A DNA stretch of 34,872 nt from positions 1-34,872 of IMG/VR virus record IMGVR_UViG_3300030388_001086; one strand, given 5' to 3'. The first letter of the stretch is position 1. The number at the start of each line of letters is the position of its first letter. Positions 2,488 through 33,170 of this stretch are shown here, one piece after another. The stretch comes from a virus. A program made the position numbers and the translations under genes. The notes below the pieces were generated by a model. That model was not told the origin of the DNA and ran no database searches. It was given only the letters and a program-made list of their open reading frames with translations.

Positions 2488-3129
2488 ATGCAGCCAAGAA
2501 TAAGTGTTAAACAGGTAGTCTCTTCCGTTATAAGAAATCTTGGTGTACAAGATGCAGCAAGAGAATTTCATAACTTTGTAGAATGGGCATTTGAAGCAGA
2601 AAAAAAAATAGGTTCATTTAAAACTTTTTTAATAAAAGAAGCTACACTTACTATTTCTAACAAACAAGCTACACTACCGACAGATTTTATATCTATTATA
2701 GATGTTAAAAATAGTAGTAATATATACTACGAACCTCAGAACAAACCTTTTAAGACAACAAATACAAGTGATGTACACTATAGATATTACATGGCTAATG
2801 GGTTTATGAGATTTTCTATTACTACTGATACTAAACTTACAATATCTTACAAATCTTTAGATATAGATGAAGAAGGGTTTCCTACGATAGAGGCGAATCA
2901 CGAAGATGCAGTTTCTGCTTATATTATGTATAAATATAAAGCTAGAGATTATTACAATCAAAATTTACCACGATACATTTATGTAGATTTAAAAAGTGAA
3001 TGGACACGTTTGTGTGGTCAAGCTAGAGGACATGATAACATGCCTTCTAGAAATGAATTACGTGCTATCTCAAAGTATTGGAATAGTTTGATACCAATAT
3101 CCCCTGACCTTTCTAAATACGACATATAA
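2488..3129 (+). CDS. crAss-like tail tubular/ring protein (213 aa)
   Basis: This is the best-recognised connector gene. It has an N-terminal helical region with FVEWAFEAEKKIGS (30-43), then a strand with LPTDFISIIDV (63-73), then ISYKSLDIDEEGFPTI (119-134). That ISYK...DEeGFP signature followed by a helix (AVSAYIMYKYK, 141-151) is characteristic of a family found in crAss-like and other podovirus tail blocks. The C-terminus has a Trp (172), CGQARG (176-181) and MPSRNE (185-190). It probably forms a ring of the short tail next to the muzzle, whose gene follows with a 1-nt TAATG overlap. Confidence 0.68.
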   Translation: MQPRISVKQVVSSVIRNLGVQDAAREFHNFVEWAFEAEKKIGSFKTFLIKEATLTISNKQATLPTDFISIIDVKNSSNIYYEPQNKPFKTTNTSDVHYRYYMANGFMRFSITTDTKLTISYKSLDIDEEGFPTIEANHEDAVSAYIMYKYKARDYYNQNLPRYIYVDLKSEWTRLCGQARGHDNMPSRNELRAISKYWNSLIPISPDLSKYDI

Positions 3130-7994: not shown

Positions 7995-9565
7995 TGGCTT
8001 ATTTTTCAAAAGATACATACGATAAATACAAGAACCCTACGATAGTTGAACCACCTGTACAAGGAGCTCAACCTATGTATAATCCTTCAGATGTTACACA
8101 AAAAAATCCATACTTAGATGTAGATTCTAATCAATTACAAAATATGTATAATCATGAACTAAATATTTTAGAATCAGATAATACAAGAGTTGCACCATCT
8201 CAAGATATAGGACCAGACGGTCAATTTATAAAGTATAGAGGAGGTAAAGAAAGTGATTATGGTGACTCTTTTTGGATGGGAACTTTGGAACAAGACAAGG
8301 CAGACTATGCTAAAACTTATAAGAACGGAGGTACTTTAAACTCGTACCATGATGGTGGTGAAGTCGAAGAGCATCCACACGTATTTCGTAATGGAAAAAA
8401 AGTAGATAAGAGTGTAGTAGATATGATTGAAACAGGTGATGAAACTAATTTAAGTTTTTTACCACCAGATTTAAAATCTAAACATCCTGAAGTTTATGAA
8501 AAACTAATGAACATGGATGAAGGTACTAAATCTTCAATGAGTAACTATTTTTCACAGACCGTAGATTCTGCTAGGGAAAATGTAAAAGGAGTTTCTAGTG
8601 GTATGGCTTGGTTTGCTGAATTAGATGTAGACCCTGTAAAGGATATTTTAACTAAAGCAAAAATTGAAAAGTCAGATTTTAGAAATGTAGTAAAAGATTA
8701 CGCTGAATCAAAAGCTAATAATGCAGGAGAAGATTTTGGTTTGATAGCTAAGACAGCCCTAACAAGTGCAATGGCATTAAAAGGACTTAAAAGAGGTGGA
8801 GAACTTCCAAAAAAGTTAGAAGGCGGTGACTTAACAGAAGGACAGCAAAGTACTGTCAACTGGGCAAATATGGCTTCTACAGTAGCTAACACAGCAGTTG
8901 AAGTTACAACACCATCAGCTGTGTTCGGAAAAGCTGACCCATACTCAACGGCTACACGTAAAGAAACAAGAAGAGCTGGAATGGGAGAAAGAGCTAAAAA
9001 AGGAGCTTCAATAGGTGGTACAGCAGGTGCAGCAATAGGTTCTGTTATCCCAGTAGTAGGAACAGCGGTAGGTGCAGCTGTTGGTACAGCAATAGGAACA
9101 GTAGTTGGAAGTATTTCGGGATTCTTTGGTGGTAATAAACAATACGAAAAAAACGAAGCAGCTGTTGATAAAAGAGAAGGCGAAGAACTTGTAAATACAA
9201 TAGGTTTAGGAAATCAAATATCAGAAGGCATATCTCAGAAAAATTCCATGGCGTCGACAACAGATTATCTAGAAGAATTATCTGGAAATACAACAGGCCC
9301 TTACAGCTCTCATAAGCGTGGAGGTATGGTATACGGTCCAAGACATGAAAGCGGTGGTGTAATGGCTGTTAAAAACGGAAAGCCAATAGCTGAGGTAGAA
9401 GGAGACGAGTACATCATAAACAACGACATTATAAAAGACAAAAAAGAGTCTAAACAAAGATTTAAAGTAGAAGGAACTCCTGCTCAGATAGCATCTGCTT
9501 TAAACTCATACAAAGGGTACGGTGACAATACAAACCCAGGTGGTAACATATATAAAATAGGTTAA
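7994..9565 (+). CDS. Glycine-zipper virion cargo-like protein (523 aa)
   Basis: A polar N-terminus (1-200) leads to helical stretches and then a 44-residue glycine zipper (337-380) made of small residues with GxxxG spacing, able to insert in a membrane. Short x-x-Gly-Gly motifs recur at 81-84, 110-113, 119-122, 267-270, 275-278, 441-444 and 452-455, three of them Lys-Arg/Asn-Gly-Gly. The C-terminal segment GPRHESGGV...AEVEGDEYIINN (448-477) matches a motif I have seen in phage ejection or tape-measure-like proteins of Bacteroidota phages; its function is unknown. Placement ahead of the glucosaminidase and RNAP-like genes suggests an ejected internal virion protein that helps form a membrane path. 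This role is inferred. Confidence 0.55.
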   Translation: MAYFSKDTYDKYKNPTIVEPPVQGAQPMYNPSDVTQKNPYLDVDSNQLQNMYNHELNILESDNTRVAPSQDIGPDGQFIKYRGGKESDYGDSFWMGTLEQDKADYAKTYKNGGTLNSYHDGGEVEEHPHVFRNGKKVDKSVVDMIETGDETNLSFLPPDLKSKHPEVYEKLMNMDEGTKSSMSNYFSQTVDSARENVKGVSSGMAWFAELDVDPVKDILTKAKIEKSDFRNVVKDYAESKANNAGEDFGLIAKTALTSAMALKGLKRGGELPKKLEGGDLTEGQQSTVNWANMASTVANTAVEVTTPSAVFGKADPYSTATRKETRRAGMGERAKKGASIGGTAGAAIGSVIPVVGTAVGAAVGTAIGTVVGSISGFFGGNKQYEKNEAAVDKREGEELVNTIGLGNQISEGISQKNSMASTTDYLEELSGNTTGPYSSHKRGGMVYGPRHESGGVMAVKNGKPIAEVEGDEYIINNDIIKDKKESKQRFKVEGTPAQIASALNSYKGYGDNTNPGGNIYKIG

Positions 9566-9566
9566 G

Positions 9567-11738
9567 ATGGATAAGAAAAAATTAGCTGAACTAAAAAAAT
9601 TCGTAGAAAAATATACCGAAGGAACAGGTCTTTTTCCTGAAGTAATGATGGCCCAAATTCTGTTAGAGTCAGGAAACTTAGAATCGGGGCTAACAACTTT
9701 GCATAACAATCTTTCTGGGCAAAAAATAGCACATAAAGATAAAGCAGGAAAAACAGTAGGCGTTGATTATGTCTTAATGGCAACAAATGAGGGATTCAAA
9801 ACTGAAGCATTAGCTAAAGCATATCAAAAGAAAAAGTTAGGACAAAAATATGTTGTTAATTCATTAAAACAGAATCCTAAAACAAAAGAATGGATAGTCA
9901 ACTATGACGGTCCTTTCAAAAAGTTTGAAACTTTCGAAAAAGGAGTAGAAGCTCATATAGATTTTCTAACAGGTAAGAATTCTAAAATTCAAAAAGCTAG
10001 ATACGCAAAAGTACGAGAAGCTAAGACTCCTGAAGCTCAAATTAAAGCATTAAAAGCTTCTGGATACGCTACTCACGGAGCATACATTGAAGATATAACC
10101 ACCAAATTAGATACAATAGTTTATAAAGAATATCCTGATTTTGAAGGTTTAACAAAATTAGATAAAGAAATTCGTGTTGCAATTAATAAAGATGTAAGTG
10201 AAATATACGACCCACAGATTCAACGTCTTAGAGATAAAGGGTTTAATGAAGAAGCAGATGAGTTAGAGAAAGAAGGTGAGGCTAGGATTAAACAACTTAA
10301 AGAACAACTTAAAGGCAAGACTGAGAAGGAAGTAACTAAAAGTTTAGAAAACGAAAAAAAGAGATTTCTAAATAGCGATGACCAAAATAGAGCGTCAAGT
10401 GTTGGAAGAAATACTGGAGTAGAGAAAACTGAATTACAAAAAGCTGGTATAGACTTAAGCCCTCAAGATGGTTATAATGACGTTCTTAATACGCAAAGCA
10501 AAGTAGAAAACCAACAAGACGTTGTAGATTCTATAACTAAACTAGAAGAAATTGTCGCAAACGAAAATGAGCAATATACTTTTAGTCAAATACGAACAGC
10601 AAGAGAAAGTTTAGAAGAATTACAAGACTTTAATGAAAATAATAAAAAGAAGTTAGGTCTTATAGATGACCCTAACGTTGATACCTCAACAATAGTTTTT
10701 AAGGAAACAATAGACTCAAGAGCTGAAATTCAAGGTAAGGTAGATAAAGTTTTAAATGATATATATACAGTAAAGGAAGCAGAAGCTAAAGAAGTTGCCA
10801 GAGTAGAATTAGAAGGAGAAGAAGAAGAACCTTACGACTCAACAGAAGGAGGTAAGTACGTAGATGTTCCTAATATACCAGGAGCTGAGTATAAAGAAGA
10901 AACTACAACAGATGGTTTACTATCTGAAGGTCAAGGCAGTGAAGTATCATTAGACCCAAGCAAAGGTTTAAGTATTTTAGAACAAGAAGAGGAAATGTTC
11001 GAAGTTCCTCCTGGAGATACCCCTGAAGAAATAGCCGCAGCAGAGGCAGCTAGGAAAGCAGCACGAAAAGAAAAAATAGCCAAACTAGGAGACGTTTTAA
11101 CTCAAGCTGGTAAAACAGCAGGTGTAGCATTAATGGCAGGGGCTGGTATAAAATCTATGTTTGAAGCTACTAAACTTAGTAAGACAAATAAAATTAGAGT
11201 ATCCCCTCTTATGCAGGAAGCTTTTCAAAAAGCAAAAGCATTATCTACACAAGGAATGACTTATGAAGAAAGGACAGCAGCTATGTCTGATATGAATAAT
11301 GCATACGCTGGGGCTATGAAAAATGTAATGGCTATCTCTGGTGGGCAACGCTCTACTGCTCTTGCTAACATGGGGGTTGTTGACGCTTCTAGAGTAAATG
11401 CACTTGTAGACCTTGCTGGGAAAGATGCAGCCCTTAGACAGGGTAATATGAAGATTTACCAACAACAAGCTACAAGCCTTGGTAACATGACTCTTACTGC
11501 AGACTCTACTAACGAACAGTTAAAAGCTAAACTAGAAGAAGGTCGAAAAAATAGACTAACTAAAATAGGAGAAAGTTTATATACTGAATCTTTAGAGTTA
11601 GCAAGGAATTTTGCTGACCAGCGTAATAATAAAGATTTAGTAAGTACATTTGCTGAACTGCAATCACAAATAAATAGTTCAAATGAAGAACTGGACTTTG
11701 TAAAAAATCAATTGGGTTCATTATACGTAAAAGAATAA
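9567..11738 (+). CDS. Virion protein with N-terminal GH73-like glucosaminidase domain (723 aa)
   Basis: Residues 1-170 match the FlgJ/GH73 endo-beta-N-acetylglucosaminidase pattern: AQILLESGNLESG (29-41) with E34 as candidate catalytic acid, NNLSGQK (47-53), a basic insertion, a KKFETFEKGVEAHIDFL strand-helix (about 115-131), and a Tyr-containing final helix (SGYATHGAYIEDI). Such domains cleave the glycan of peptidoglycan. The remainder is a long charged, coiled-coil-prone region (about 190-460), an acidic linker, then an Ala-rich helical C-terminus with a short hydrophobic patch (GKTAGVALMAGAGI). The gene starts 1 nt after the preceding stop and sits within the cargo block. The architecture recalls ejected lytic internal proteins such as T7 gp16, with a glucosaminidase instead of a transglycosylase. 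Confidence 0.72.
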   Translation: MDKKKLAELKKFVEKYTEGTGLFPEVMMAQILLESGNLESGLTTLHNNLSGQKIAHKDKAGKTVGVDYVLMATNEGFKTEALAKAYQKKKLGQKYVVNSLKQNPKTKEWIVNYDGPFKKFETFEKGVEAHIDFLTGKNSKIQKARYAKVREAKTPEAQIKALKASGYATHGAYIEDITTKLDTIVYKEYPDFEGLTKLDKEIRVAINKDVSEIYDPQIQRLRDKGFNEEADELEKEGEARIKQLKEQLKGKTEKEVTKSLENEKKRFLNSDDQNRASSVGRNTGVEKTELQKAGIDLSPQDGYNDVLNTQSKVENQQDVVDSITKLEEIVANENEQYTFSQIRTARESLEELQDFNENNKKKLGLIDDPNVDTSTIVFKETIDSRAEIQGKVDKVLNDIYTVKEAEAKEVARVELEGEEEEPYDSTEGGKYVDVPNIPGAEYKEETTTDGLLSEGQGSEVSLDPSKGLSILEQEEEMFEVPPGDTPEEIAAAEAARKAARKEKIAKLGDVLTQAGKTAGVALMAGAGIKSMFEATKLSKTNKIRVSPLMQEAFQKAKALSTQGMTYEERTAAMSDMNNAYAGAMKNVMAISGGQRSTALANMGVVDASRVNALVDLAGKDAALRQGNMKIYQQQATSLGNMTLTADSTNEQLKAKLEEGRKNRLTKIGESLYTESLELARNFADQRNNKDLVSTFAELQSQINSSNEELDFVKNQLGSLYVKE

Positions 11739-11742
11739 TACT

Positions 11743-13608
11743 ATGGGTTTAGATTTATCAAAAGTTTCTCAACAGCTTACTACATTTAGTAAGTCTCCTG
11801 CTGCAAGAAGAGCTAATGAATACTCTCTTAAGAATGCATTTATGTATCAAGAGATGGAAGCTGAAGAGCAGAAAAAAGCTGATGCAGCGTTTATAAATAC
11901 TACTAATGCAATACAAAATGTAGAAAAAACAGCTAAGACGATGGCTTGGCGTGCGAAAGACAAAGCAGTTTTAAATGAAAATTATAAAGAACATGCAGAT
12001 ATTTTAAAACAAACTATACTAGAAGATTTTGGTGGAGATATAACTAGATTTTATCAACAAGGAGGTCAAAGACATTTACAAATGTTTGCTATGAATGTGC
12101 TGAACAATGATAAAGCACAAGTTATGGCTCAGAACACTGCTGAATATAAAAAGTACGTAGATGTAATGAATAGTGGGGGTGGAGATAAAATATTTAACTC
12201 TGTACATAAAAAGTCTGAACAATATCAAGCAGGATATACAGACGAGTTTTCTTATGGAGTTGATATGATTCCATACTCTAAACCTAATAAAGATGAATTA
12301 AATTCATTTCCTCCAAACATGTCTAAAGCCGAAGTGTATTTAAATACAGGTGCTAACTATAATGCTGCAGTAGTAAATTATAGAAATGAATTTAATAAAT
12401 CTCAAGAAGAGATGGATGAATTAGCTCCCGAAGAATTAATAAGCTATGTTGCAACGTATGTAGGAGGTAATGGTACAACAAATAGAATAAGTAATACTGC
12501 TCCTAAGTTGTCAAATGAGATTAGTACTATTATGACATCTATGGGTAATGTAAACGCTTCTGATGTTATGTCACTTGAAAATCTAGATACTAATTATAGA
12601 AAACAATTAAGTGCATTAAATGAATATGCTTTCTATAACCCTGAACAAGAAATGGAAGGTAATGTATATGGTAAAGAAATATTTGGTGATTACTTAGTTG
12701 AATTAGCAGGAGCATTTATAGATTCTGATTTTACTAGAGCAAATGGATATACTGAAGAAGGTACTGTTACCTTAAGAGATGTTGACCATTCTAGTGGAAC
12801 AATGTATGACGGTGTTGGTAACAAACTAGAATCAGGAACTGCTTTTGGTCAAGGATATTTTAACTCAGACCAATTTGAAATTATGGGTGCTATGATGGGG
12901 TACAAGACATTGGGTGACGGTGATGAAAGAATATTGACTTATGATGAAATGCAAGAGATTAACAAAAACGGAAAAGATATTAAAGTAAAACCTGTTATGT
13001 TAATGGCTATGCAAGAAGAATCTACTAATGTGTTTGGATTTGGAGATGCAGATGTAGTATATAAAGAGCTTGCTTTTGATAACGTAGTTAAAGCTGATGC
13101 ATTTAATAAAGCGGTAAAAGCAGATTCTAAACTTTTAGCTGCAAAAGTTCAAGAAAATGCAGATGCATACAATCAACGGATAGATGATGTGCCTGTATTT
13201 GATGGACTAAAAATTACTTCTGCTCCTAAAAAACTGTACAACTACGCCCTACACTACGATAGAGCGTTAACTGATAAGTTAGGTAATCTTGGAATACAAA
13301 AGTCAGATATAAATACAAAATCACTACTTTTGTCTTTTGCTCATACTATAGCAGCTAATAACGATGATGTAACACACGATATTGTTATAGACAATTTAGA
13401 TAAAATATTTTCTTTATCAACGAACCCTGATATGAATGATGCTTTGCAGACAAATGATATGCAAGTATTCTTAGAAACATATATGAATCAAAGAAGACAA
13501 GAAGACCCAACAATAACTCAAGAAGAACAACAAGAAATGTTTGCTGAAATTACAGAATTAGCATCTTCTATCAGAAATTCTATTATAGAAACTCAAAAAA
13601 TTAAATAA
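11743..13608 (+). CDS. Unrecognised cargo-block protein (621 aa)
   Basis: I do not recognise a domain. The protein is mostly helical, with a charged N-terminal coil (about 20-90), a Gly-rich break near 140-150 (NSGGGDK), and a Gln/Glu-rich C-terminal helix (QEDPTITQEEQQEMFAEI). No signal peptide, membrane segment or enzyme motif is visible. It starts 4 nt after the glucosaminidase gene and ends in a TAATG overlap with the giant gene, so it should be made in step with it. By position it is probably another internal (ejected) virion protein or a chaperone/scaffold for the giant protein. Only the gene call is firm. Confidence 0.55.
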   Translation: MGLDLSKVSQQLTTFSKSPAARRANEYSLKNAFMYQEMEAEEQKKADAAFINTTNAIQNVEKTAKTMAWRAKDKAVLNENYKEHADILKQTILEDFGGDITRFYQQGGQRHLQMFAMNVLNNDKAQVMAQNTAEYKKYVDVMNSGGGDKIFNSVHKKSEQYQAGYTDEFSYGVDMIPYSKPNKDELNSFPPNMSKAEVYLNTGANYNAAVVNYRNEFNKSQEEMDELAPEELISYVATYVGGNGTTNRISNTAPKLSNEISTIMTSMGNVNASDVMSLENLDTNYRKQLSALNEYAFYNPEQEMEGNVYGKEIFGDYLVELAGAFIDSDFTRANGYTEEGTVTLRDVDHSSGTMYDGVGNKLESGTAFGQGYFNSDQFEIMGAMMGYKTLGDGDERILTYDEMQEINKNGKDIKVKPVMLMAMQEESTNVFGFGDADVVYKELAFDNVVKADAFNKAVKADSKLLAAKVQENADAYNQRIDDVPVFDGLKITSAPKKLYNYALHYDRALTDKLGNLGIQKSDINTKSLLLSFAHTIAANNDDVTHDIVIDNLDKIFSLSTNPDMNDALQTNDMQVFLETYMNQRRQEDPTITQEEQQEMFAEITELASSIRNSIIETQKIK

Positions 13609-16600
13609 TGCCTGAAAATATAGATAAGCCCTCAGTTGCAATTAATAAACTATACGATGCTAGTTTTTTAAAACCTACAGCAACAGATGCTTCCACTGGC
13701 ATAGAGGTTGGTGAAAACATGACCATAGGTAATTCTCAAGATAACTATGGATTATCTTTTTCAGATAAACAAAAAGAATATAGTCAAGCTATATTAGCTC
13801 AAGATGAACAAAATAATCCAAAGAAAGACTTACAAATGGGTGGCTTTGAAAGAACAGGTCGTTCTTTTGTAGCTGGTATTGGAGATTTAGTAGATGGTAT
13901 TGGAGATACTATAGATTTTTTATCGGGTACTCCTGCTACAAAAAGCATGCTTGGAGGTCCATTAGTAGGTTTATCACAAGAATTATATGGTATTGACTTG
14001 AATAAACCTATGTCTGATTTCTTTCATGGGTTAGGGGAAAAGATACAATCAGTAGGAGATGAAGTTCCAGGTTTAACAGACTTTTCGGATATGACTTTCT
14101 CAGATGCATTTACTTTAGACTTCTGGGCAACTCACGGAGCTAGAGCTATCCCTTTTACAATTTCGTTTTTAATACCTGGTGCAGGTGGTGCAAAAGCAGC
14201 CTCTATGGGTATATCTGCGTTAAGTAAAGCTGGTAAGCTTTCTAAGGTAGGTTTAAAAGCAGCAAAGAAAATGAAAAAAGCTGGGCTTGCTCCAGACCTT
14301 TTAACTGCATCTAAAAGAATGAAAAACTTAGCAGTTGGTTCTGGTGGGGCTATAGCAGGTAACCTTACTGAAGGATTATTTATTGCAGGTCAAACTTTAA
14401 ATGATGGTATTGAACAAGGACTTTCATTAGAGCAAGCGCAAGTAGCGGCAAGAGATGTATACTTAGACAACATGAAGTGGATGGGGGTTGATGGATTTCA
14501 ATTAGCTTTATTTATGGGTGGTGGTAAAGTTCTTAAGACGGCTCGCCAAATAGCAAAAGGAAAAGGAGCTAAGACTCTAATCCGTAAGCCTGGAATGAAA
14601 GGGTTTTTGGCTAGTATGGGTGCAGTTTCTGGTGCAGCATTAACAGATGGAATGTTAGAGCAGTATCAAGAAGTGTATCAAGATTGGACTCAAAAAAGAA
14701 GAATAGCAGAACAGAAAGGAGAAGAGTTCATGAGCTACATGGATTACTTTGAGAGCGATGAGGCAATGGCAACAAGAGTGATTTCATTCGCCTCTGCAGG
14801 TTCTATGACAACAGTAAAGTCTTCTATTAATCAAGCAGCAGAAAGAAAAGCTATATTAACAGAAAAACTATCTAAAGATGGTCTTGTTAAAGAAAACTTA
14901 GATTTATTTAATGAGGAAATAGAAGAGTTTGATGTAAAAGATTCAGGCGTACAGCAAGAGGATACAGATGCATTAGAATCATCTACTGAGCAACGTAAAG
15001 CTATGGAGTACAACCAACTTGAAGCTTTAATGGTAAGGTTAGGTTTAGAAGGTAAATCAGAATACTTTAACGATTTTGTTCAATCTCAAGTAGAAAATAA
15101 AAAACTAACACAAGAGGAAGCAGATTCATGGACTAGCACTATGGATAATGTCCAGACACAAATACAAAACTCTCCAAATAATAATTTAAACTTTAACGAA
15201 AAAGTAGGAATTGTAAGGTCTTATATAGACTTAGGCAATGTTCAGAAAACTTTAGATTCAAAGAATAAGTTTTATGAAGAAGAGAAAGCTGGTATTGAAA
15301 ACGATAACATTATAACCGACAAGCAAAAGAAAGAGGAGCTTAAGGCTTTAGAACAAAATAGAAAAGATGAGCTTGCATCGGTAGAAGAGTTAAAGAAACA
15401 AACAAAAGCTGATATACGAAGTATAATAGACACAAGTCAAATTCGTAGAGAAGAAGAGCGTGTACAAAAAGAAGTTGTACCAGAGTTAAGAAGAGTAATA
15501 GCTAAAGAAAATTCACAAGAAGAATTAACTCCAGGAGAAGTTAAAGTTAAAGCTGATAATCAAAAGCTGTACGAGACTGAGTTAGAAAAAATTCGTCTAG
15601 AAGCAGCTCAAGAAAAAGTCGGTAATGATTTTACTTATAAACAAAACGAAGATAAAGACAATACAGACCTTTTGTTTACCAAAGAAGGTAAGGATGGGGA
15701 TATTATTGAAAAAAGAGTTAACGACAAAGGTATAGTAAGTGAACGTGTATTAGATAAGCCTGCTGCTGTAGAAGACGCTAACGCAAAACAAGAAGAAGAA
15801 TCGAAAGAAATATCTGCAGAAGAGTTAGCAAAAGAGACTAGTACTACAGAACCTGCTGAAGAAAAAGAATCTGAAGAAGATAAACCTAAAGATAACGAGC
15901 AAGTAGAAAAAGAATCTTTAACAAGAAGGTTTGTAAATAAGTTTAAGAAGAACAAGAAAAAAGGTAAAACAATAAATGCTAAAAATATATCTGAGCAGCA
16001 AGTTAAATTAACTAGAGGGCAAAGATATGTATGGGCTGAGAATATGATGGCAGAAGACCCATCTACAAGTTACTACTTTGCTAGAACAGTTGATGAATTA
16101 GGGCAACAATCTTCTGGTCAAGCAGTTGGGTTAGCTGTATTCATAAACCCTGGTACAATGACTCAGGAAGTATTCCACCATGAAAGCTGGCATATTTATC
16201 AAAAGATGTATGATAACACACCAGAAATGGCTGCTATCAAAAAAGAAATAACTAGAAAGCGTAACGGCAAATACGTACACCCTATATATTATAAAACTTT
16301 CTTACAGTATTTGTCATTTACTAAATGGCAAAAAGAAGGTAAAACGTCTACACTTAAAGGGTTAGTTAAAGGTCTTGGTTTGGATAGTTATGTTAAGTGG
16401 ATGAAAACCAATGACATAGCTCAGTCATCTCTTAATTCTGACCAAAACTACTTTAACTATGTTAATGAAGAATTAAACAAAAAAGGTTATAAAGTAGCAC
16501 CAGACACTAAGCAAGACTTAATTACTAATGAGGCTATTGCACAAGCAGGTGGTAAAACAAATGCTAACGACAGCACATTCTTTTCTTCTTATGAAAAGGA

Positions 16601-19600
16601 CAAAAAAGTTATGTCAGAAAAGATTGGTGCAGTTTGGTCTAAAATTAAAAGCAAAGTAAGCCCTAATCAAGCTAAAGACATTATACAAGCAGCAGCTCCT
16701 GGATTATATGACTCAGACTTAGGAGAGATGCTTCGTAAAGCTAGGGTAGAATTTGCTAAACCAAACAACAAAAGACGATACGCTAATCAATTCTCTAAAG
16801 AAGGTCCGTTTCACCAAAAGAAACAAATAGATTTAGAGAGAATGAACATGGAGTCGGCTATTGAAAATTCTTTATCTGATAGATATAGTAGTGGGTTAAT
16901 TAATAAAGTTGTAAACAATGCTATAAATAATGCTGATGATACTAATCAAGCTGAGTTTTTAAATGACCTTGTTAAGTTAAATAAACATGAAATACTAACA
17001 CAAACTGTACTTAATCTAGGTAGAACTCTTGGTGCAGATGAAGTAGCAAAAATAGAATCTTTTGTAACAGACCCTAAAAACGCTAAGTATTTAGATAGAG
17101 TTATTAGAAATTCAGCATTTAGTAAGCTTATACAAATGCGAAAAGAAGAACAAGAAGGCGCACAGCTTTCTATGTTTGATGAAATTATAGAAGCAAGCCT
17201 TGAGTCTGAAGTAGAGGCTATGTTTGGTGAGCAAATACAAGAGGAATTTAGTAGACAACTGAACCCAAGAGCAACAAAGCTTATTAATGAATTTGTAAAA
17301 CTAAACAATAAGACTGGAGACCCTATAAAGACCTATACTGTATATGCAGGATTATCTAAAGCATTAGAAGGTAATCGTAATAATAAAGATAGGTTTGAAC
17401 AAGAGGTATTATCCTTAATGGATATTTCAAAAGACCTTACACTTAAGGACACATTATCAGCATCACAACTAGCTTTTGTTGGTTTTATGAATTATGCAAA
17501 AGGTAATATGTTGAACTCTAAAAACGCAGAGGATTCTATATGGCATTATTTCCGTTCATTTAAGTTGGAGAAAGGATTTCAATTTACAATAAAAGAAGAT
17601 GGTACGGTAGAAGCTGAGAATCAATTACCTAAGTTTAATCAAAGATTAATTAACGGTAAGGTAGCTTCTCTAATGGAGAACTTATTTGGAGAGAGTCAGT
17701 ATTCGTTTAGTAAAGCTATTCAACTTGAAAAGATGCGTAGCACTAACAATGAAAACAAAAACAAAGCAATACTACAGTTTGTAAAAACTATTGCTAAAGA
17801 TAGCTTTGACTACACTACTTTGACTGAGGAAGATATGGACAATATATCTATAGATGGTATACCTTTATCTCAATATTTTACTGACGCAAGAATAGACAAT
17901 TTACAGTTAGAATTTTTTAATCCTAATTTGAAATATTACTATGACGTAGCTGCTACGCAAACTCAAGATGGTTTTCCTACTAATCCGTTACAACAATACG
18001 AACGAGCTACTAGTTCTATAGTATCATATTATACAAAAAGTATAGTTGACTCTAAAACAAGAGGTAGAGTTACTAATCTTGTAACTTCTATAACAAATAG
18101 AGCTTGGGCTAACTACAATGAAAGAACAGATAATGGTAGGGCTAACGATGAGTTGTCAAACGGAACTTTAGTCTATAAAGGTGGTGTAGCTTATTTTTCT
18201 AGAAAGAATTCTTCTTTAGTAATAAAAGATGTATTTAATAAGTTACACAACTCTCTTTACTACCATATACAAGACAGTAGCATTGGTGGTATAACATTTA
18301 ACCCAGAGGGTGAGTCTGTGTCTTTATATAACAAATCAGCGTATATATACGAAAACATAGAAAACTTATCAGACTTTATATCTGACCTTAAAGAGCAAGA
18401 ACAAGGAATAAATAGATATGCTAGTTTATTTCCTGGTAATTACATAGCTTTTGATATGTATGAAGAAGGATATAAACCTGAGATTTCTTATGGTTTAGGT
18501 ATTTACGAAGAAGGTGGTAGAGGTTATAAAAACTCTAATGTAACTCCAGAGCTTGCTTTAAAGGCTAGAGTCTTACATTTTATTTCACGATATAAAAATG
18601 GCTCTACTGAATACAAGCAATTCTTAGGTCAATTGGGAGATAGCTCTCGTCAGTATTATTTAGATAATACTAATTTGTTTACTAAGCCAGGTGAAATAAG
18701 CACTGGGTTTAAAACAATAGAAACATTAACAGGAAAAAAAGTAGACCATACTTCTAATTCAGAAGAACTTTATCAAACTCTTTTAAAAGCTGGGTATATA
18801 ACTGAAAGCGATAAGTTATCAATAAAATTGTTTTACGCTAACAACTATATAAACAAGTACTTTGCACAGGATTTATTTTTCAATAAGTCTACTTCACAAA
18901 GGGATAGTGCTTTACAAGCTGACTTACCTAAAAGACTAAAAGGTATATCATCTCCTCGTATTAATATTACAGGTAAAAGAATAGAGCCGTTAGTAATTAA
19001 GGATATGAAGACTGAGTTTGGTGCTCCGTTGGCTGATTCAGCTTCGTTTATGCTACCAGAAACAGCAAGAATGTTGCAAAACCAATATGGCGAACTAGAA
19101 AACATTGGTAACAACCTTAAGACGTTACACTATGGACAAAATTTAGACAACACTACTTTCGAAGGTAAGTTTGGTAAACGAGTACCTATATACTTAAAGA
19201 GCCATACACACATATTAACACCTAGCATGACTGCTAACAACCCAGCGTTGAAGGCTATAGAAAAAGTGTTAAGAACAAGAATGCATAAACTTAAAGGAAC
19301 TAATGCAATACCTATTGTGTATTTTGATAGTTCTATTAAGGGTGGTCTTACTAAAGACCAGATAGGTGGTATTGATACTAGTAAGATGACTAAGGAAGAG
19401 ATTGAAAAACTGACTAATATACAAAAAAATGGTCTTGGTTATTCTATGGAGGAAATTATGGAGTGGTCTAAAGACTATGACTATATTACTATGTTAGAAA
19501 AATCTGGCAACAGGTTAACTCTAGAAAATAAAAACAAGCTAGAGACATTAAGCATACACCAAAGACAAGACGAAAGATACAGATACGAAGATGTTAACGG

Positions 19601-22600
19601 TAATACACTTTATGGTTTTGATGGTCAAAACTTTGGTATACAAAACACATTAGACAATACAAACAAACAAGCTGTAGTTGCTAAACAAGCCTTAGCTAAC
19701 TTGAACGTAATAAATACTGTATCTAAGTTTAAGAACGGTAAGTCTGGATTAAATGTATTAACAGAGATAAAAGAAACTTTAGCTCAAATATTAGACGAAC
19801 AATACAAACAGGCATTCCCAGAAGATTTTGACTTGAGTTCTGTTGTTGAAGAGTCAGTAGAAGATGTGTTTGGTTTCTTAGACGCTTCCATGCAAGAAGA
19901 TATGGGTGGTGATTTTGTTGGAAACCACAACATTAGAAATAAAGTACTTGCTGCAAGGTTTAGAAGACAAGCAATGAGTATTAAGACTAATGGTACGCTT
20001 TCTACTGAAATGTCCGATATAGGGTATAGCTTTCAAAGCGAAAACTTTAAAACATCAGACAAGCTTAAGACTTATGAGGTTTTACCTGACGGAACAGTTC
20101 AATTACCTGAAATAATAATATCTAAACACGCAGCCAAAGTTCTTGGAATTACAAAAGAAGACATTAAAAAAGGTGAAGGAAAAGTATTTGCAACTCGTAT
20201 TCCTCACTCTAAAATAGGAGACCAAAAAGCATACGTTGTTAAAGAAATTATATCAGATTCTAGTGCTGGAAATATGGTTATCATACCAGCTGAGTCAGCT
20301 TTTGATATGGGTTCTGATAAGGATGGTGACCAACTACACATTAACGGTATTAAGAAGGGTAAAGACTTGTCTGAAACAGATAAGTTAAAGAATGTATTTT
20401 TAGAGCAATTATTTGATTTATACAACCAACCAGAAATGGTTTCTATGGTGAATAAGGTTATAGAGTTTGAAGAGTCTATTACTACACCTGGTATATCACA
20501 TATAGAAAACAACTTAGAACAAGGTCAAGGTAGAGTACTAGATGACCTTAACCCATTAGATGAAGTAAAAATACAAGATAGATTTGTAGGTAACCAAAAA
20601 ATACTTGGTATAGCTGCGTCATTAAATAGAAGTTTTAATTATTTCGCAGGTGCTAGAACACAATTTATGCTTGCTGGTAATAAAACTAACATTATAGTAA
20701 ACAACGTCAACGCTACTAATTTGATGCATGTCAAAGAGGGTAAAGAATTATGGTTTGAATTTGCAAAGCTACTTAACTTTATTATTGATGATGGTAAGAA
20801 TGGTGATAGAGCTAAGTTTAAGATGATAGAATCTACTGCTGCTCACTTTGCTATTTTACACAGAACAGGAGTTCCTTTAGAGGGTATACTAGATATAATG
20901 CATAATGCTAATTATCAAGAGTATTTAAAAGAAGTAGTGTTTGGAGAAAAAACTAAAAAAGATTTTTTTGGTGAGTATAAAGTATATGAAATAGCACAAC
21001 AAGGTGTTACTATAAATACAAAAAATGGTATAACTAAAAATGAAGTAAGAAATTTAGTAGTAACTCTAGATAATATAAAAAATGATTTAAAAGTGTTTTC
21101 TAGAATGGCTTCTTTAGATTCTAAAGCACCTTCTAATATGTTTGAGTTAGTTGCTTTACAACAGCAATTTATTAAAGCTAAAGAAAACCAACCATATTTA
21201 GCATCGGCATATAATAATGATGCTTACTTAAGAAAACAAGCTGAGTTACTTGAAAAGTATAAAGGTTTATTAGCAAAAGAAACATTTTTGTCAGAGAATG
21301 AAGCTAAAGTTATTTTAAAGTCGTTTAACGATACTTTAGACTTTATAAATCCAGAGGCATCAAAAGTTATATATGACTCATTAGGGTTTCATAAACTTGC
21401 TGTATATGCAAAAGCAAAAACTATAGAGCTAGACGGAAACAAGTTTAGTTTTAATGATTTGTTACTAAACTCTATGAATAGTTTAGATAGAAAAAACTTT
21501 GAGATTAATTTTAAAGAAGGTGGTATTTTAGCTAATGCTACATACGAAACACAAATAGAAAGTTTGCTCTCGTCTATAGATAACAGTATAGAAAAGCTTA
21601 TTACAGAGAATATAGATAACGACTTCTTAAGTTATGTAACTAAAATTAAAGTAAAACATTTAAATAGTAAAAATGATTTTTCTTTATACTCTAAGTACGA
21701 ATTAAGTCCTTCTATTAAAAGTGCTATAAATACTAAAACTCAACTAAATAATATAAGAAAGTCGTTTGCTAGTCTACCAGTAGAATTACAAAGTTATTTT
21801 ATAGCTATGGAATTTTTCCAAAACACATTTGGGCTAGGAGATTCAAATCAAACTTTCTTACCATTCTTACCTAAAAGCGTAAGGTCTACTTTAAAAGCGT
21901 CATCTAAGAAAATGATGACAGAAAAAGACACTACAAGTATAGATGCGGAGTTAGATTTATTAAACGAAAACTTAGGTGCAAACAAAGGAATTTCTCTTTC
22001 TTCTAGAGTAGATGAATTGTTAGCTACAGACGAAGACTTTATTGCAGAACAATCTGAACTAAGAGCTATAAAACTAGTAGAACTTATGGCAAGTTTTGCT
22101 CCTAATACTTTGAAAAAAGCTTTACGAACTTCTACAAAAGAAAACGTAAGGACATACGGAACGAATTTTAGAATAACCAATCTATTACAAGAAGAGACAG
22201 AAGAAAGTTATCAAAATGCTAAAAACATTATAAATAAAAATGGTTTAGTAATTTCTGATAAACAAATGTTTAGTATTTCATACGAAAAAGGGCAAGACAT
22301 AAAGAAATATGTATTAAATCCTAGTCGTAAGTTGCCTCTTATGAACATACACAAGCTGTATTCTCCTATTATATCTGCAGAAAACCAATTACAAAAAGGT
22401 AAAGATGAAAATGGTAATCCTGTAATGCATATGAAGAATAGACCATCTAACAATTTTATGTTTGGTTTAGAATCTCAGATGACTAAAGATGCTTTTGGTA
22501 GAGTAGGAGAAGTTTATTTAAAATGGAATCAAGATTTAAAAGGTTTAGAACAAGCAGAACCAGCTAAATACAAGAAACTATCAGAAGAGTATTCACATTA

Positions 22601-25385
22601 CTTATCATCGTTAAATGAAGTAAGTGCAATTAGAGACCAATTAGACTCTGACAATCAACTACGACCACAAGGTTCGTATAATAAAGAATACTTCGATAGT
22701 ATATATGCTCGTTTAGATTATTATCATAATCGTACACATAATTTACATCCTACAGCTAAAGAAAATATACTACAAGAACTAAACTATAGGTTTGGTGAAG
22801 TTATAACTGCAGCTCAACAACAATTTTGGGGCAGAACTGAAGAAGGAGAAAGACTTTTAAATATGGTGTCTGACGAAGCTAGGTCTAAAGACATATCTGT
22901 AGGTGATATGATGTTTAGTCCTGGAGATTTTGGACAAAACCATCCTACATTAGCTGCCGTACGAAGACAAATAGAAACAGGAAACCAAAAAATGCACTCT
23001 AACCTTAAGAAGGTTACGGATGAATTAAACGAAGCGTATAGCGCTTTGTATAAAGAGAAGTATGGTTTAATGAGATATGCTACTAAAGTTATTAGTAACG
23101 TACCATTATTAAGGTTTGCTTACTCTAAAGAAAAGATAGCTGAACAGTTGTTTGATAAACTGCAAATACAGAAGTCAGAGCTTTTATCTGTTTACGATGA
23201 AAAGACTAAGAAAAACATTAATAAACTTATTAACAAAACAGAGCTAAATAGTAAGTATTTTACTGATGAAGGTATATTAAAGAAGAATCTTAACAAACTA
23301 CCAGAGTCAGAAAAGTTGTCAGAAGCAGAGCTAAATTACGCAAACCTTGTATCACGCTATACAGTATTTTACCAAAAACTTCTTGAATCAAAAGGATTGT
23401 TTGGAGATAAAGGTAAGCGTAGTAGATACGTTCCTCTTATGAAAGCTAGTAAATACGAAATTTACAGAAGAAGAGGTATATACGGATTGTACTATTTAAT
23501 GCATAGTAACAAAGACAATATGTATGATGGTATGATTGTTACTGCATACAATCCAATGACGGGTAAAAATGAAACTAAAACTTACTCTGAGTTTAAAGCT
23601 ATATATTCTACATCTAAAGAAGAGGTGTTAGAATACCAAAAACAATTTAAAGGTAGGTTACCAAATAGTCAACTCAAAGCTATAGATTTAAATGCTTTTG
23701 GAAACATTACAAGAGCTAGAAATTTAAAATCTTTAAGAAATAATGCAAAAGCATTGTTTAGAACAGGTAAAGATGTGTTAGGTAATCCTATAACGCCAGT
23801 AGAAGGTGCTACAGATGTAATAGACGCAGAGAACAGTAAGACGTTTAACAGATACTTAAGTACTAGAAGTAGTAAGTCTGCTTACACAGCTACATTCAAC
23901 TTACATCAAGGTATGTACAACTATCTAAAAACGATGGTGTTTCAATACGGAACAGAATACTTAAGTGAGGATGGTAATTTTAAGAGTATACAGTTCAAGA
24001 ATACAGATAGAGGGAAAGAGTCAATGATAGTGAGTGGTAAGAAAAACCACGTTCAAAACTTTAATGGCTTTGAGAACTATAAATTTATGGTAGATGGAGC
24101 GATGCAATTTTTAAGAGGTGCGTCAGATGACAATTCTAACTCTGTACAGTATCTTAAGGACGTTGTAATGGATAGGTTTATAATGGGTACTCCTAAACAG
24201 ACAATTACAGGACTTGACTCTGAAAGAAAAGCAGTAGAGACTCTTACTCGATGGACAATGATGATTGGTTTGGGGCTTAACTTTACCGCAGCAGGATTTA
24301 ACATAGCTATAGGTAAGTATAACGGATGGCGTTCATTGGGTACTGCTAAGTTTGTAAAGTCTCATATGCGTGTGTTTGGTATTGGAGAGAATGGACTTTG
24401 GGATTCTAGAAGAGCTAAGAAAGCTCAATTAATACTAGAGGAGTATGGAATATTAACATACAGACCTGAAGACCAACTAGAAGATGCTGGACACGATACT
24501 TTAATAGATAAGATATTATTCTTTCCTATGACTCAAGCAGAGAAGTGGATACAACGAACTCAGTTTGTTGGAGAGCTATCAGATGCACAATGGAATTCTT
24601 ATGACATAGATTCTAATGGAAAGTTAATGATTGTAGACCAAGCTAATGCTCTTAATCCAGACCAAGTAGCACGTAAGGTTAGGTCTGTACAAAACGTACA
24701 GGGTAGAGGTTATTCTGATGCTGACCAAAGACTTATTCAGACTTACGCTCTAGGTAGTATGGTTATGCAGTTCAAAAGATGGTTTCCTACTTATATAGCT
24801 GATAGAATAGGTAAGGTTGGTTATCAAGAACACATAGATGACTTTGGAAAAACATACGCAGGTTCTGTTACAGTATTTAAAAAACATGCAATTGACCATT
24901 TAGGTAACCCTATATCATATATAAAAGATATGAGTAAGTTATCTAAAGCAGAACAACAAGCTCTTGGTAGATTCCATAGAGGACAAATGGGTATACTACT
25001 TACTGGGTTACTATTCTTAATGTCTGGAGGAGCTGAAGGTGGAGAAAGTGATGAAGATGAGGCTATTAATTCAGCATTAGAGAAATTTCTTGGTGATGCT
25101 ATGTTAGCAGTCAACCTACCTAAACTAGGATATATGGCAACTGTCCCAGCCGTAAATACACTAAACAGTATATTGTATTTAACTTATCATGGACTAGGTG
25201 GTGCAGAATATACAAGAGATAGTAAGTATGGATATAGAGGGGAGAAGAAAAGCCGTAGATACTTAGCTGCATTATTACCTGCTCCTTTAAGAAGTCAATT
25301 AGTAAGAGAGTCTAAGACTCCTGAAAAAATAAGGAAAGCACGTAGGGCTAAGAAAAGAAGAATAGAAAAACGAAGAGGTAATTAA
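13608..25385 (+). CDS. Giant polyvalent virion protein with RNAP-like core and HExxH protease motif (3925 aa)
   Basis: Order of parts: residues 165-352 are Gly/Ala-rich hydrophobic stretches with a LTEGLFIAGQTL...ARDVYLDN pattern typical of large polyvalent phage proteins; 430-640 charged coils; 640-800 acidic, then a Lys-rich patch (about 775-795). H858-E859-S-W-H862 is an HExxH zinc-peptidase motif, with E975 (NEAIAQAGG) a possible third ligand. YLKSHTHILTP (K1864) and SSIKGG (K1911) resemble the beta-like barrel of phage two-barrel RNA polymerases. RIPHS (2197-2201), GNMVIIP and D2237-K-D2239-G-D2241-QLHI resemble the beta'-like barrel with the Mg-binding DxDGD loop. The C-terminus has YALGSMVMQFKRWFPTYIADR (about 3711-3732), a hydrophobic helix (about 3793-3808) and a basic tail. 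It probably acts as the crAss-type virion RNA polymerase fused to other cargo functions; crAss-like phi14:2 gp66 is the known precedent for the polymerase. RNAP activity is inferred from motifs, not proven. Confidence 0.75.
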   Translation: MPENIDKPSVAINKLYDASFLKPTATDASTGIEVGENMTIGNSQDNYGLSFSDKQKEYSQAILAQDEQNNPKKDLQMGGFERTGRSFVAGIGDLVDGIGDTIDFLSGTPATKSMLGGPLVGLSQELYGIDLNKPMSDFFHGLGEKIQSVGDEVPGLTDFSDMTFSDAFTLDFWATHGARAIPFTISFLIPGAGGAKAASMGISALSKAGKLSKVGLKAAKKMKKAGLAPDLLTASKRMKNLAVGSGGAIAGNLTEGLFIAGQTLNDGIEQGLSLEQAQVAARDVYLDNMKWMGVDGFQLALFMGGGKVLKTARQIAKGKGAKTLIRKPGMKGFLASMGAVSGAALTDGMLEQYQEVYQDWTQKRRIAEQKGEEFMSYMDYFESDEAMATRVISFASAGSMTTVKSSINQAAERKAILTEKLSKDGLVKENLDLFNEEIEEFDVKDSGVQQEDTDALESSTEQRKAMEYNQLEALMVRLGLEGKSEYFNDFVQSQVENKKLTQEEADSWTSTMDNVQTQIQNSPNNNLNFNEKVGIVRSYIDLGNVQKTLDSKNKFYEEEKAGIENDNIITDKQKKEELKALEQNRKDELASVEELKKQTKADIRSIIDTSQIRREEERVQKEVVPELRRVIAKENSQEELTPGEVKVKADNQKLYETELEKIRLEAAQEKVGNDFTYKQNEDKDNTDLLFTKEGKDGDIIEKRVNDKGIVSERVLDKPAAVEDANAKQEEESKEISAEELAKETSTTEPAEEKESEEDKPKDNEQVEKESLTRRFVNKFKKNKKKGKTINAKNISEQQVKLTRGQRYVWAENMMAEDPSTSYYFARTVDELGQQSSGQAVGLAVFINPGTMTQEVFHHESWHIYQKMYDNTPEMAAIKKEITRKRNGKYVHPIYYKTFLQYLSFTKWQKEGKTSTLKGLVKGLGLDSYVKWMKTNDIAQSSLNSDQNYFNYVNEELNKKGYKVAPDTKQDLITNEAIAQAGGKTNANDSTFFSSYEKDKKVMSEKIGAVWSKIKSKVSPNQAKDIIQAAAPGLYDSDLGEMLRKARVEFAKPNNKRRYANQFSKEGPFHQKKQIDLERMNMESAIENSLSDRYSSGLINKVVNNAINNADDTNQAEFLNDLVKLNKHEILTQTVLNLGRTLGADEVAKIESFVTDPKNAKYLDRVIRNSAFSKLIQMRKEEQEGAQLSMFDEIIEASLESEVEAMFGEQIQEEFSRQLNPRATKLINEFVKLNNKTGDPIKTYTVYAGLSKALEGNRNNKDRFEQEVLSLMDISKDLTLKDTLSASQLAFVGFMNYAKGNMLNSKNAEDSIWHYFRSFKLEKGFQFTIKEDGTVEAENQLPKFNQRLINGKVASLMENLFGESQYSFSKAIQLEKMRSTNNENKNKAILQFVKTIAKDSFDYTTLTEEDMDNISIDGIPLSQYFTDARIDNLQLEFFNPNLKYYYDVAATQTQDGFPTNPLQQYERATSSIVSYYTKSIVDSKTRGRVTNLVTSITNRAWANYNERTDNGRANDELSNGTLVYKGGVAYFSRKNSSLVIKDVFNKLHNSLYYHIQDSSIGGITFNPEGESVSLYNKSAYIYENIENLSDFISDLKEQEQGINRYASLFPGNYIAFDMYEEGYKPEISYGLGIYEEGGRGYKNSNVTPELALKARVLHFISRYKNGSTEYKQFLGQLGDSSRQYYLDNTNLFTKPGEISTGFKTIETLTGKKVDHTSNSEELYQTLLKAGYITESDKLSIKLFYANNYINKYFAQDLFFNKSTSQRDSALQADLPKRLKGISSPRINITGKRIEPLVIKDMKTEFGAPLADSASFMLPETARMLQNQYGELENIGNNLKTLHYGQNLDNTTFEGKFGKRVPIYLKSHTHILTPSMTANNPALKAIEKVLRTRMHKLKGTNAIPIVYFDSSIKGGLTKDQIGGIDTSKMTKEEIEKLTNIQKNGLGYSMEEIMEWSKDYDYITMLEKSGNRLTLENKNKLETLSIHQRQDERYRYEDVNGNTLYGFDGQNFGIQNTLDNTNKQAVVAKQALANLNVINTVSKFKNGKSGLNVLTEIKETLAQILDEQYKQAFPEDFDLSSVVEESVEDVFGFLDASMQEDMGGDFVGNHNIRNKVLAARFRRQAMSIKTNGTLSTEMSDIGYSFQSENFKTSDKLKTYEVLPDGTVQLPEIIISKHAAKVLGITKEDIKKGEGKVFATRIPHSKIGDQKAYVVKEIISDSSAGNMVIIPAESAFDMGSDKDGDQLHINGIKKGKDLSETDKLKNVFLEQLFDLYNQPEMVSMVNKVIEFEESITTPGISHIENNLEQGQGRVLDDLNPLDEVKIQDRFVGNQKILGIAASLNRSFNYFAGARTQFMLAGNKTNIIVNNVNATNLMHVKEGKELWFEFAKLLNFIIDDGKNGDRAKFKMIESTAAHFAILHRTGVPLEGILDIMHNANYQEYLKEVVFGEKTKKDFFGEYKVYEIAQQGVTINTKNGITKNEVRNLVVTLDNIKNDLKVFSRMASLDSKAPSNMFELVALQQQFIKAKENQPYLASAYNNDAYLRKQAELLEKYKGLLAKETFLSENEAKVILKSFNDTLDFINPEASKVIYDSLGFHKLAVYAKAKTIELDGNKFSFNDLLLNSMNSLDRKNFEINFKEGGILANATYETQIESLLSSIDNSIEKLITENIDNDFLSYVTKIKVKHLNSKNDFSLYSKYELSPSIKSAINTKTQLNNIRKSFASLPVELQSYFIAMEFFQNTFGLGDSNQTFLPFLPKSVRSTLKASSKKMMTEKDTTSIDAELDLLNENLGANKGISLSSRVDELLATDEDFIAEQSELRAIKLVELMASFAPNTLKKALRTSTKENVRTYGTNFRITNLLQEETEESYQNAKNIINKNGLVISDKQMFSISYEKGQDIKKYVLNPSRKLPLMNIHKLYSPIISAENQLQKGKDENGNPVMHMKNRPSNNFMFGLESQMTKDAFGRVGEVYLKWNQDLKGLEQAEPAKYKKLSEEYSHYLSSLNEVSAIRDQLDSDNQLRPQGSYNKEYFDSIYARLDYYHNRTHNLHPTAKENILQELNYRFGEVITAAQQQFWGRTEEGERLLNMVSDEARSKDISVGDMMFSPGDFGQNHPTLAAVRRQIETGNQKMHSNLKKVTDELNEAYSALYKEKYGLMRYATKVISNVPLLRFAYSKEKIAEQLFDKLQIQKSELLSVYDEKTKKNINKLINKTELNSKYFTDEGILKKNLNKLPESEKLSEAELNYANLVSRYTVFYQKLLESKGLFGDKGKRSRYVPLMKASKYEIYRRRGIYGLYYLMHSNKDNMYDGMIVTAYNPMTGKNETKTYSEFKAIYSTSKEEVLEYQKQFKGRLPNSQLKAIDLNAFGNITRARNLKSLRNNAKALFRTGKDVLGNPITPVEGATDVIDAENSKTFNRYLSTRSSKSAYTATFNLHQGMYNYLKTMVFQYGTEYLSEDGNFKSIQFKNTDRGKESMIVSGKKNHVQNFNGFENYKFMVDGAMQFLRGASDDNSNSVQYLKDVVMDRFIMGTPKQTITGLDSERKAVETLTRWTMMIGLGLNFTAAGFNIAIGKYNGWRSLGTAKFVKSHMRVFGIGENGLWDSRRAKKAQLILEEYGILTYRPEDQLEDAGHDTLIDKILFFPMTQAEKWIQRTQFVGELSDAQWNSYDIDSNGKLMIVDQANALNPDQVARKVRSVQNVQGRGYSDADQRLIQTYALGSMVMQFKRWFPTYIADRIGKVGYQEHIDDFGKTYAGSVTVFKKHAIDHLGNPISYIKDMSKLSKAEQQALGRFHRGQMGILLTGLLFLMSGGAEGGESDEDEAINSALEKFLGDAMLAVNLPKLGYMATVPAVNTLNSILYLTYHGLGGAEYTRDSKYGYRGEKKSRRYLAALLPAPLRSQLVRESKTPEKIRKARRAKKRRIEKRRGN

Positions 25386-25389
25386 TTAG

Positions 25390-25397
25390 TATATTTG
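25390..25397 (+). promoter_or_regulatory. Candidate Bacteroidota-type promoter, -7 box TATATTTG
   Basis: An exact match to the Bacteroidota -7 consensus TAnnTTTG lies in the 27-nt gap after the giant gene and ends 15 nt before the ATG at 25413. With the box centred at -7, transcription would start near 25401, giving a leader of about 12 nt. No TTG -33 element is seen at the usual distance. It would start the adhesion-gene transcript. Confidence 0.5.
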
Positions 25398-33162: not shown

Positions 33163-33170
33163 TAAATTTG
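33163..33170 (+). promoter_or_regulatory. Candidate Bacteroidota-type promoter, -7 box TAAATTTG
   Basis: A second exact TAnnTTTG box lies in the only other sizeable gap of the fibre region (33146-33173). If centred at -7, transcription would start at about 33174, which is the A of the next ATG, so the transcript could be leaderless for the 44-codon frame or carry that frame as a leader for the gene at 33315. No clear -33 element is seen. Confidence 0.45.

Follow-up and report, generated by a model that had tools for sequence, protein, structure and literature searches.

Crassvirus gp47, gp49, and gp50 have been called RNA polymerase-associated proteins on the basis of genomics and virion proteomics. 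In crAss001, mass spectrometry detected all three in virions, and they are thought to leave through the tail in a partly unfolded state (PMC10172136). Their phi14:2 homologues carry structural annotations based on MS/MS, and the phi14:2 polymerase (6VR4, gp66; gp077 in GenBank) is a packaged protein that enters the cell and there transcribes early genes (summary in PMC7886860). A review puts crassvirus RNA polymerase genes at up to about 6000 aa (PMC10136315). The virion RNA polymerase of N4-like phages (Schitoviridae), ~3500 aa, is one giant ejected chain with an envelope-associated N terminus (PMC12633501, PMC5512222). That of N4 itself has a membrane-associated N terminus, the polymerase, an HExxH domain, and a helical C terminus (PMC12633501).

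We analyzed a window of viral DNA (34,872 nucleotides; 34.9 kb of a 41.2-kb virus record) encoding a giant protein. In this protein and its relatives (the window clade), a gp47-like N terminus, an HExxH domain, a polymerase (gp50), and a gp49-like C terminus are all in one chain. In the named crassviruses, these modules are spread over two or three genes, and the breakpoints differ. Steigviridae (crAss001, cr111_1, and DAC15) encode gp47, gp50, and gp49 in separate genes, and crAss001 has its HExxH domain at the end of gp47. Intestiviridae (p-crAssphage, crAss002, cr110_1, cr271_1, and others) join the polymerase to the gp49-like part and keep gp47 apart; the gp47-like proteins of p-crAssphage and cr110_1 are annotated as zincin fusions. 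In p-crAssphage (BK010471), gp45 is annotated as an RNA polymerase-associated protein fused to a zincin protease, and gp44 fuses the polymerase and gp49-like parts. The module order is that of the window, but there are two genes, with the break between zincin and polymerase. Suoliviridae (cr1_1, cr118_1, and cr7_1) resemble the window in having the HExxH domain and the polymerase in one frame. However, their gp49-like part has its own gene, their zincin cannot be aligned to that of the window, and their chains are longer (4551 aa for cr1_1 gp76, 4946 aa for cr118_1 gp14, and 5445 aa for cr7_1 with TAG as Gln). Only with TAG decoded as an amino acid is the cr7_1 giant frame (L045:7527-23861) open; for this gene, the window clade keeps to the standard code. 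In cr108_1, the split falls inside the polymerase, and the HExxH domain is upstream of the polymerase in one frame. Wherever the genes are collinear their order is constant throughout, and therefore the all-in-one chain amounts to a known row of genes closed into a single frame.

The phi14:2 polymerase shares with the window protein a two-barrel single-chain core, the DxDxD loop, and the lysines, and its gene is also in a tail-distal block. However, it has 2180 aa, is separate from the gp47- and gp49-like proteins, has no HExxH in its chain, and reads GSDFDID in the catalytic loop where the window protein reads GSDKDGD. The N4-like polymerase, like the window protein, combines an RNA polymerase with an HExxH domain and a large helical C terminus (PMC12633501, PMC5512222), but it is T7-like and single-subunit rather than two-barrel, and its HExxH domain comes after the polymerase. 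Because both the phage group and the polymerase are unrelated, the one-chain design of N4 and the window clade appears to be convergent. Another two-barrel virion polymerase fused to a virion protein is gp96 of Thermus phage P23-45; its partner is the tape measure protein, no zincin is reported for it, and the polymerase is of another clade (PMC10770324). Polyvalent proteins, in the sense of Iyer et al. (2017), are phage-delivered chains that join unrelated enzymatic domains; the window chain combines a polymerase with a probable peptidase and, if delivered, may be one of them.

A first-pass annotation of this DNA had considered a protease-polymerase fusion unusual. That did not hold up, and we rejected such a fusion as new in itself. 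It is already present in single frames of cr1_1, cr118_1, cr108_1, and cr7_1, p-crAssphage gp45 is annotated as a zincin fusion, and the N4 polymerase has an equivalent combination (PMC5512222, PMC12633501). The literature searched, which did not include two key papers from 2018 and 2021, contained no account of the clade or of a four-module chain. As far as we searched in these genomes and this literature, what is new is the complete four-module fusion, always in one chain, and the clade that has it. It is a new arrangement, made up of parts already known, and not a new kind of machine.

Extent, setting, and relatives of the giant frame

The first base of the giant gene is also the last base of the gene before it (621 aa), and 27 bases after its frame there are more genes on the same strand (Table 1). 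The single uninterrupted frame described at first pass is open in the standard code and is repeated in relatives.

Table 1. Features of the window (aa, residues of the giant protein unless a protein length is given)
Feature	Coordinates	Strand	Basis
Tail ring protein 2	1445-2101	+	PF25702/PF24228 ring matches (E 4e-20, E 4e-30 in listed order)
Tail ring protein 1	2488-3129	+	Ring entries listed: PF25702 E 4e-20, PF24228 E 4e-30
Crassvirus muzzle protein, 1621 aa	3129..7994	+	PF25731 E 6e-112
Three genes, muzzle to giant protein	7994..13608	+	Glycine-zipper, glucosaminidase, and 621-aa proteins
Giant fused virion RNA polymerase protein, 3925 aa	13608..25385	+	Single open frame, standard code
N-terminal module, aa 84-419, glycine-rich	13857..14864	+	gp47-like by unmixed profiles and blastp
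Putative zincin-like metallopeptidase domain, aa 801-994	16008..16589	+	Invariant H858, E859, H862, Q969, and E975; no zincin fold match above noise
HExxH motif HESWH, aa 858-862	16179..16193	+	Conservation in relatives
E975 in NEAIAQ, predicted third metal ligand	16530..16532	+	Invariant, 28/28 aligned relatives
Two-barrel RNA polymerase core, aa 1565-2601	18300..21410	+	Model, Foldseek, VIA
K1864, lysine of first (beta-like) barrel region	19197..19199	+	Invariant
GSDKDGD catalytic metal-binding loop, aa 2235-2241	20310..20330	+	Aligned with phi14:2 GSDFDID
C-terminal module, aa 3540-3891	24225..25280	+	crAss001 gp49 C terminus (QGRGY...QFKRWFP)

Neither Pfam nor PHROGs had a model matching the giant protein at E 0.01. 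BLAST-level searches of a phage collection, with the core, the zincin, or the C-terminal part as query, yielded no relative of it, and scanning viral contigs with the single core or muzzle sequence was also unsuccessful. The family was reached by searching viral contigs for the codons of DKDGDQLH in degenerate form, and then with profiles. The codon pattern found five loci with giant frames 34-38% identical to the window protein, and the last profile scan of the viral contigs had 37 loci, some of them near-identical. None of the bacterial genome contigs in the profile-stage scan encodes a relative.

Metagenomic misassembly might have merged adjacent genes into one frame, and named crassviruses do carry the modules as adjacent collinear genes (cr111_1). 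However, all 24 distinct complete clade members (23 contigs and the window) have a single uninterrupted giant frame, of 3510-4637 aa, even where identity to the window in the core is down to ~20%. Therefore, the giant frame is real, and we rejected misassembly as an explanation with almost no probability left to it. Truncated clade members end at contig ends, without internal stops. All four modules were found by HMM in the 24 complete members, except that in L088 the zincin was found by motif only.

In an IQ-TREE phylogeny of the polymerase core with canonical sequences from Steigviridae, Intestiviridae, and Suoliviridae, a long branch (UFBoot 100) parts the clade from the sampled canonical sequences and leaves it outside all three families as sampled. 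The single epsilon crAss genome tried (OR575929) gave no profile match and has no annotated protein above about 2,260 aa, and none of the modules matched the first 50 kb of Azobacteroides phage. These sequence comparisons place the giant protein in a distant crAss-like branch, an environmental clade apart from the named families sampled.

Matches to ring protein 1, ring protein 2, and the muzzle place the window in a crassvirus structural block. A 67.8-kb contig encoding a relative of the giant protein also has a crassvirus major capsid protein (E 8e-29), portal (PHROG E 2e-55), terminase (PHROG E 1e-90), and muzzle (E 3e-120). The identity of this terminase to those of named crassviruses does not exceed about 30%. 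The three genes between the muzzle and the giant protein are probably ejection cargo, judging by their position. Both the glycine-zipper and the glucosaminidase genes have Pfam matches, and the sizes of the last two genes (glucosaminidase and 621-aa) are kept in relatives. The 723-aa glucosaminidase-domain protein (9567-11738; PF01832, E 5e-17) is probably an ejected cell-wall hydrolase.

Some other features of the surroundings were also noted. A 1394-aa protein without a Pfam or PHROG match (26697-30881) follows the giant protein and two small genes, and proteins of 1086-1366 aa have a similar place in several relatives. The sequence TAnnTTTG, the -7 motif of Bacteroidota promoters, is found twice in intergenic DNA on the + strand (25390-25397 and 33163-33170; ~0.3 expected from the window-wide rate). 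The two sites precede the genes after the giant protein and the tail-fibre genes. GC-rich hairpin-like sequences followed by T runs (1-53 and 1356-1444), inside the structural gene block, look like intrinsic terminators. In the early region of a relative, amidoligase and glutamine amidotransferase genes adjoin (L030:8272-9771 and 9899-10975).

Polymerase core and terminal modules

Module HMMs were seeded separately with the crAss001/phi14:2 proteins and with the window protein. To avoid circularity, we compared canonical-only alignments with clade-only alignments (hhalign). With these unmixed profiles, the N-terminal module matched the canonical gp47 kind (probability 95.9%, E 6.4e-9), the polymerase matched canonical polymerases (98.9%, E 3.5e-17), and the C-terminal module matched the gp49 kind (98.9%, E 1.7e-17). 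The last of these agrees with the first-pass proposal of a C-terminal module common to other giant phage proteins. The N-terminal module also matched phi14:2 gp078 (GenBank numbering) by blastp (4.6e-5). These matches indicate that it is homologous to the N terminus of crAss001 gp47 and phi14:2 gp078, and it is probably an ejection or membrane-interacting part. Glycine content is 12.9% at aa 80-420, compared to 6.6% overall. The best 19-residue Kyte-Doolittle mean of the N-terminal region is 1.17, and the whole-protein maximum is 1.40, at 3551-3569. The N-terminal segments are glycine-rich and mildly hydrophobic, without clear transmembrane helices. The first-pass description of this end as hydrophobic and glycine-rich holds for the glycine, the hydrophobicity being mild.

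The polymerase module found by HMM is aa 1745-2441. We modeled aa 1565-2691 with AlphaFold2 and 30 clade sequences (mean pLDDT 81, pTM 0.80). The best PDB match of the core model was 6VR4 (Foldseek E 3e-23; Z 22.3 and rmsd 3.5 A over 900 aligned residues by VIA). The next were RNA-interference polymerases of the QDE-1/RDR2 kind, QDE-1 over ~530 residues. A T7-like single-subunit polymerase fold was not found in the core, which is two-barrel. The clade profile also reached 6VR4 by sequence (E 3e-19), followed by the virion polymerase of Thermus phage P23-45 with a match near the catalytic loop (E 0.02), and it matched the polymerases of phi14:2, cr118_1, p-crAssphage, and crAss001 at 1e-14 to 1e-24. 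With the protein alone as query, a sequence search of the PDB returned only noise.

GSDxDGD is retained in every relative covering the region (DKDGD is aa 2237-2241). In a comparison with 16 canonical sequences, K1864 was present in 16/16 canonical and 36/36 clade rows, and K1838 and K1911 were present in all clade rows and in 94% and 88% of canonical rows, respectively. K1838, K1864, K1911, Q2012, G2129, R2197, P2199, and GSDxDxD are common to the clade and the canonical crassvirus polymerases.

The first-pass annotation had read two RNA polymerase barrels, around aa 1860-2245, and a crAss-like virion polymerase from this region, and both readings were borne out. Two barrels are supported by the structural match of the core, folded as a whole. 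On the identity of the polymerase, sequence, profile, and structure all agree. The giant protein is a divergent crAss-like virion-type RNA polymerase, with its fold and residues pointing to polymerase activity.

The HExxH domain

Either HExxH or DKDGD alone occurs in ~4% of shuffles of the giant protein. It is conservation that makes the two significant here. The HExxH motif noticed at first pass is conserved across relatives: every one covering the region retains it, or HExxxH in one sub-lineage. Among 28 aligned relatives, no residue of the region is invariant except H858, E859, H862, Q969, and E975, a pattern that a zinc site would be expected to give. In the sub-lineage (L079, L082, and L087), HEYTGH, HEFTGH, or HELTGH replaces HExxH, and E975 is retained; an HExxxH variant has been reported for zincins of phage polyvalent proteins (PMC5512222).

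H858/E859/H862 and E975 are on two confidently modeled helices. This matches the described zincin arrangement of an HExxH helix and then a later Glu helix (PMC5512222), in which E975 would be the third metal ligand. The N-terminal sheet was modeled poorly, and neither Foldseek nor VIA found a match to the zincin-domain model above noise in the PDB. A profile search for metallopeptidase families, suggested at first pass, was no more successful, as Pfam gave no consistent match for the zincin region. The clade HExxH domain compared to the canonical crassvirus zincin (four canonical rows) had an hhalign probability of 1%. Its position between the gp47-like and polymerase modules is as in canonical crassviruses. 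We conclude from the conserved residues that this region is probably zincin-like, with predicted peptidase activity.

The region might also be a degenerate or structural metal site with no protease activity. The failure to match a zincin fold and the low model confidence for the expected N-terminal sheet are consistent with that, as are the wide spacing of HExxH and E975 (113 residues) and the sub-lineage with HExxxH. However, hardly any residue outside the motif is invariant among sequences that have 14-37% identity to this domain in the window protein, as is typical of a catalytic site kept by selection. We consider a site without protease activity unlikely.

If the domain is an active zincin, there are two candidates for what it cuts. 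It could cut between the modules of its own chain, in the head or after ejection, to give gp47-, gp50-, and gp49-like proteins, and the fusion would serve only for packaging. This is a possibility that we hold tentatively. The domain is located between the ejection and polymerase modules, the HExxH...E motif is retained in all relatives covering the region, named crassviruses carry stop codons at those junctions, and Iyer et al. propose autoproteolysis for such domains (PMC5512222). However, crAss001, and p-crAssphage by annotation, have an HExxH domain although their gp47 and gp50 come from separate genes, so if these domains are equivalent, freeing the polymerase is not their sole role. Also, the N4 polymerase, with an equivalent domain, is packaged uncut (PMC5512222).

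Alternatively, the chain might stay whole and the zincin-like domain might be a host-directed effector, cleaving a bacterial protein of defence, envelope, or transcription after injection. Zincin is the commonest domain in injected polyvalent phage proteins (PMC5512222), the motif is conserved in all relatives, and the domain is retained whether the junction is fused or not, all of which would suit an effector. Even so, fusion to a polymerase would tether the effector to the site of genome entry, and we regard this role as conceivable but short of probable.

HExxH motifs were also seen elsewhere. There are extra ones in phi14:2 gp076 and gp081 (L003:998-5263 and 20361-22142) and in cr1_1 gp77 (L005:8825-14848), and two clade members have a second one (L057 at aa 3245 and L058 at aa 3275). 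No HExxH is present in the gp47-like protein of phi14:2. It looks as if the motif shifts from one cargo protein to another.

Delivery model and implications

The giant protein had been suggested at first pass to be ejected from the virion, and its modules do correspond to those of ejected cargo proteins, with homology to the gp47 and gp49 kinds and the polymerase. Very probably, a divergent crassvirus makes its transcription and ejection cargo in this form, as a single polypeptide where two or three are usual. It is established that the modules are fused and have homologues in other crassviruses, that the core has the polymerase fold, and that active-site residues are conserved; we infer packaging, ejection order, early-gene transcription, and protease activity as follows. 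By homology, the giant protein would be packed in the capsid, and it would thread out via the tail, behind or with the smaller cargo proteins. The glycine-rich gp47-like N terminus would engage or insert in the host envelope, and the two-barrel core would refold in the cytoplasm and transcribe early phage genes. The gp49-like C-terminal module would be the polymerase-associated part, here covalently attached, which would make for equal copy number and joint delivery. The zincin-like domain, at the boundary of the ejection and polymerase parts, would cut proteins after delivery (its own chain or host targets). The simplest reading is one ejected chain with its N terminus at the envelope and its polymerase in the cytoplasm, much like N4.

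It is more doubtful that, throughout the crassvirus clade, the early transcription apparatus enters the host as a single polyprotein of ~440 kDa that processes itself. After ejection, the zincin would then divide the chain into a channel anchored in the envelope, the polymerase, and a part associated with the polymerase, which we likewise think improbable. If true, self-processing would be a polyprotein strategy inside a tailed phage virion. Whether the giant protein is full length or cleaved in virions and infected cells would be a direct test of the role of the HExxH domain.

A similar one-chain design was reached by the N4 virion polymerase with an unrelated enzyme. In the window clade, the set is compact, at 3.9k residues, so that conserved modules stand out from clade-specific extras. 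Furthermore, that the gp47-, gp49-, and gp50-like modules are always joined is independent evidence that crassvirus gp47, gp49, and gp50 act as one complex, with a fixed order and equal copy number.
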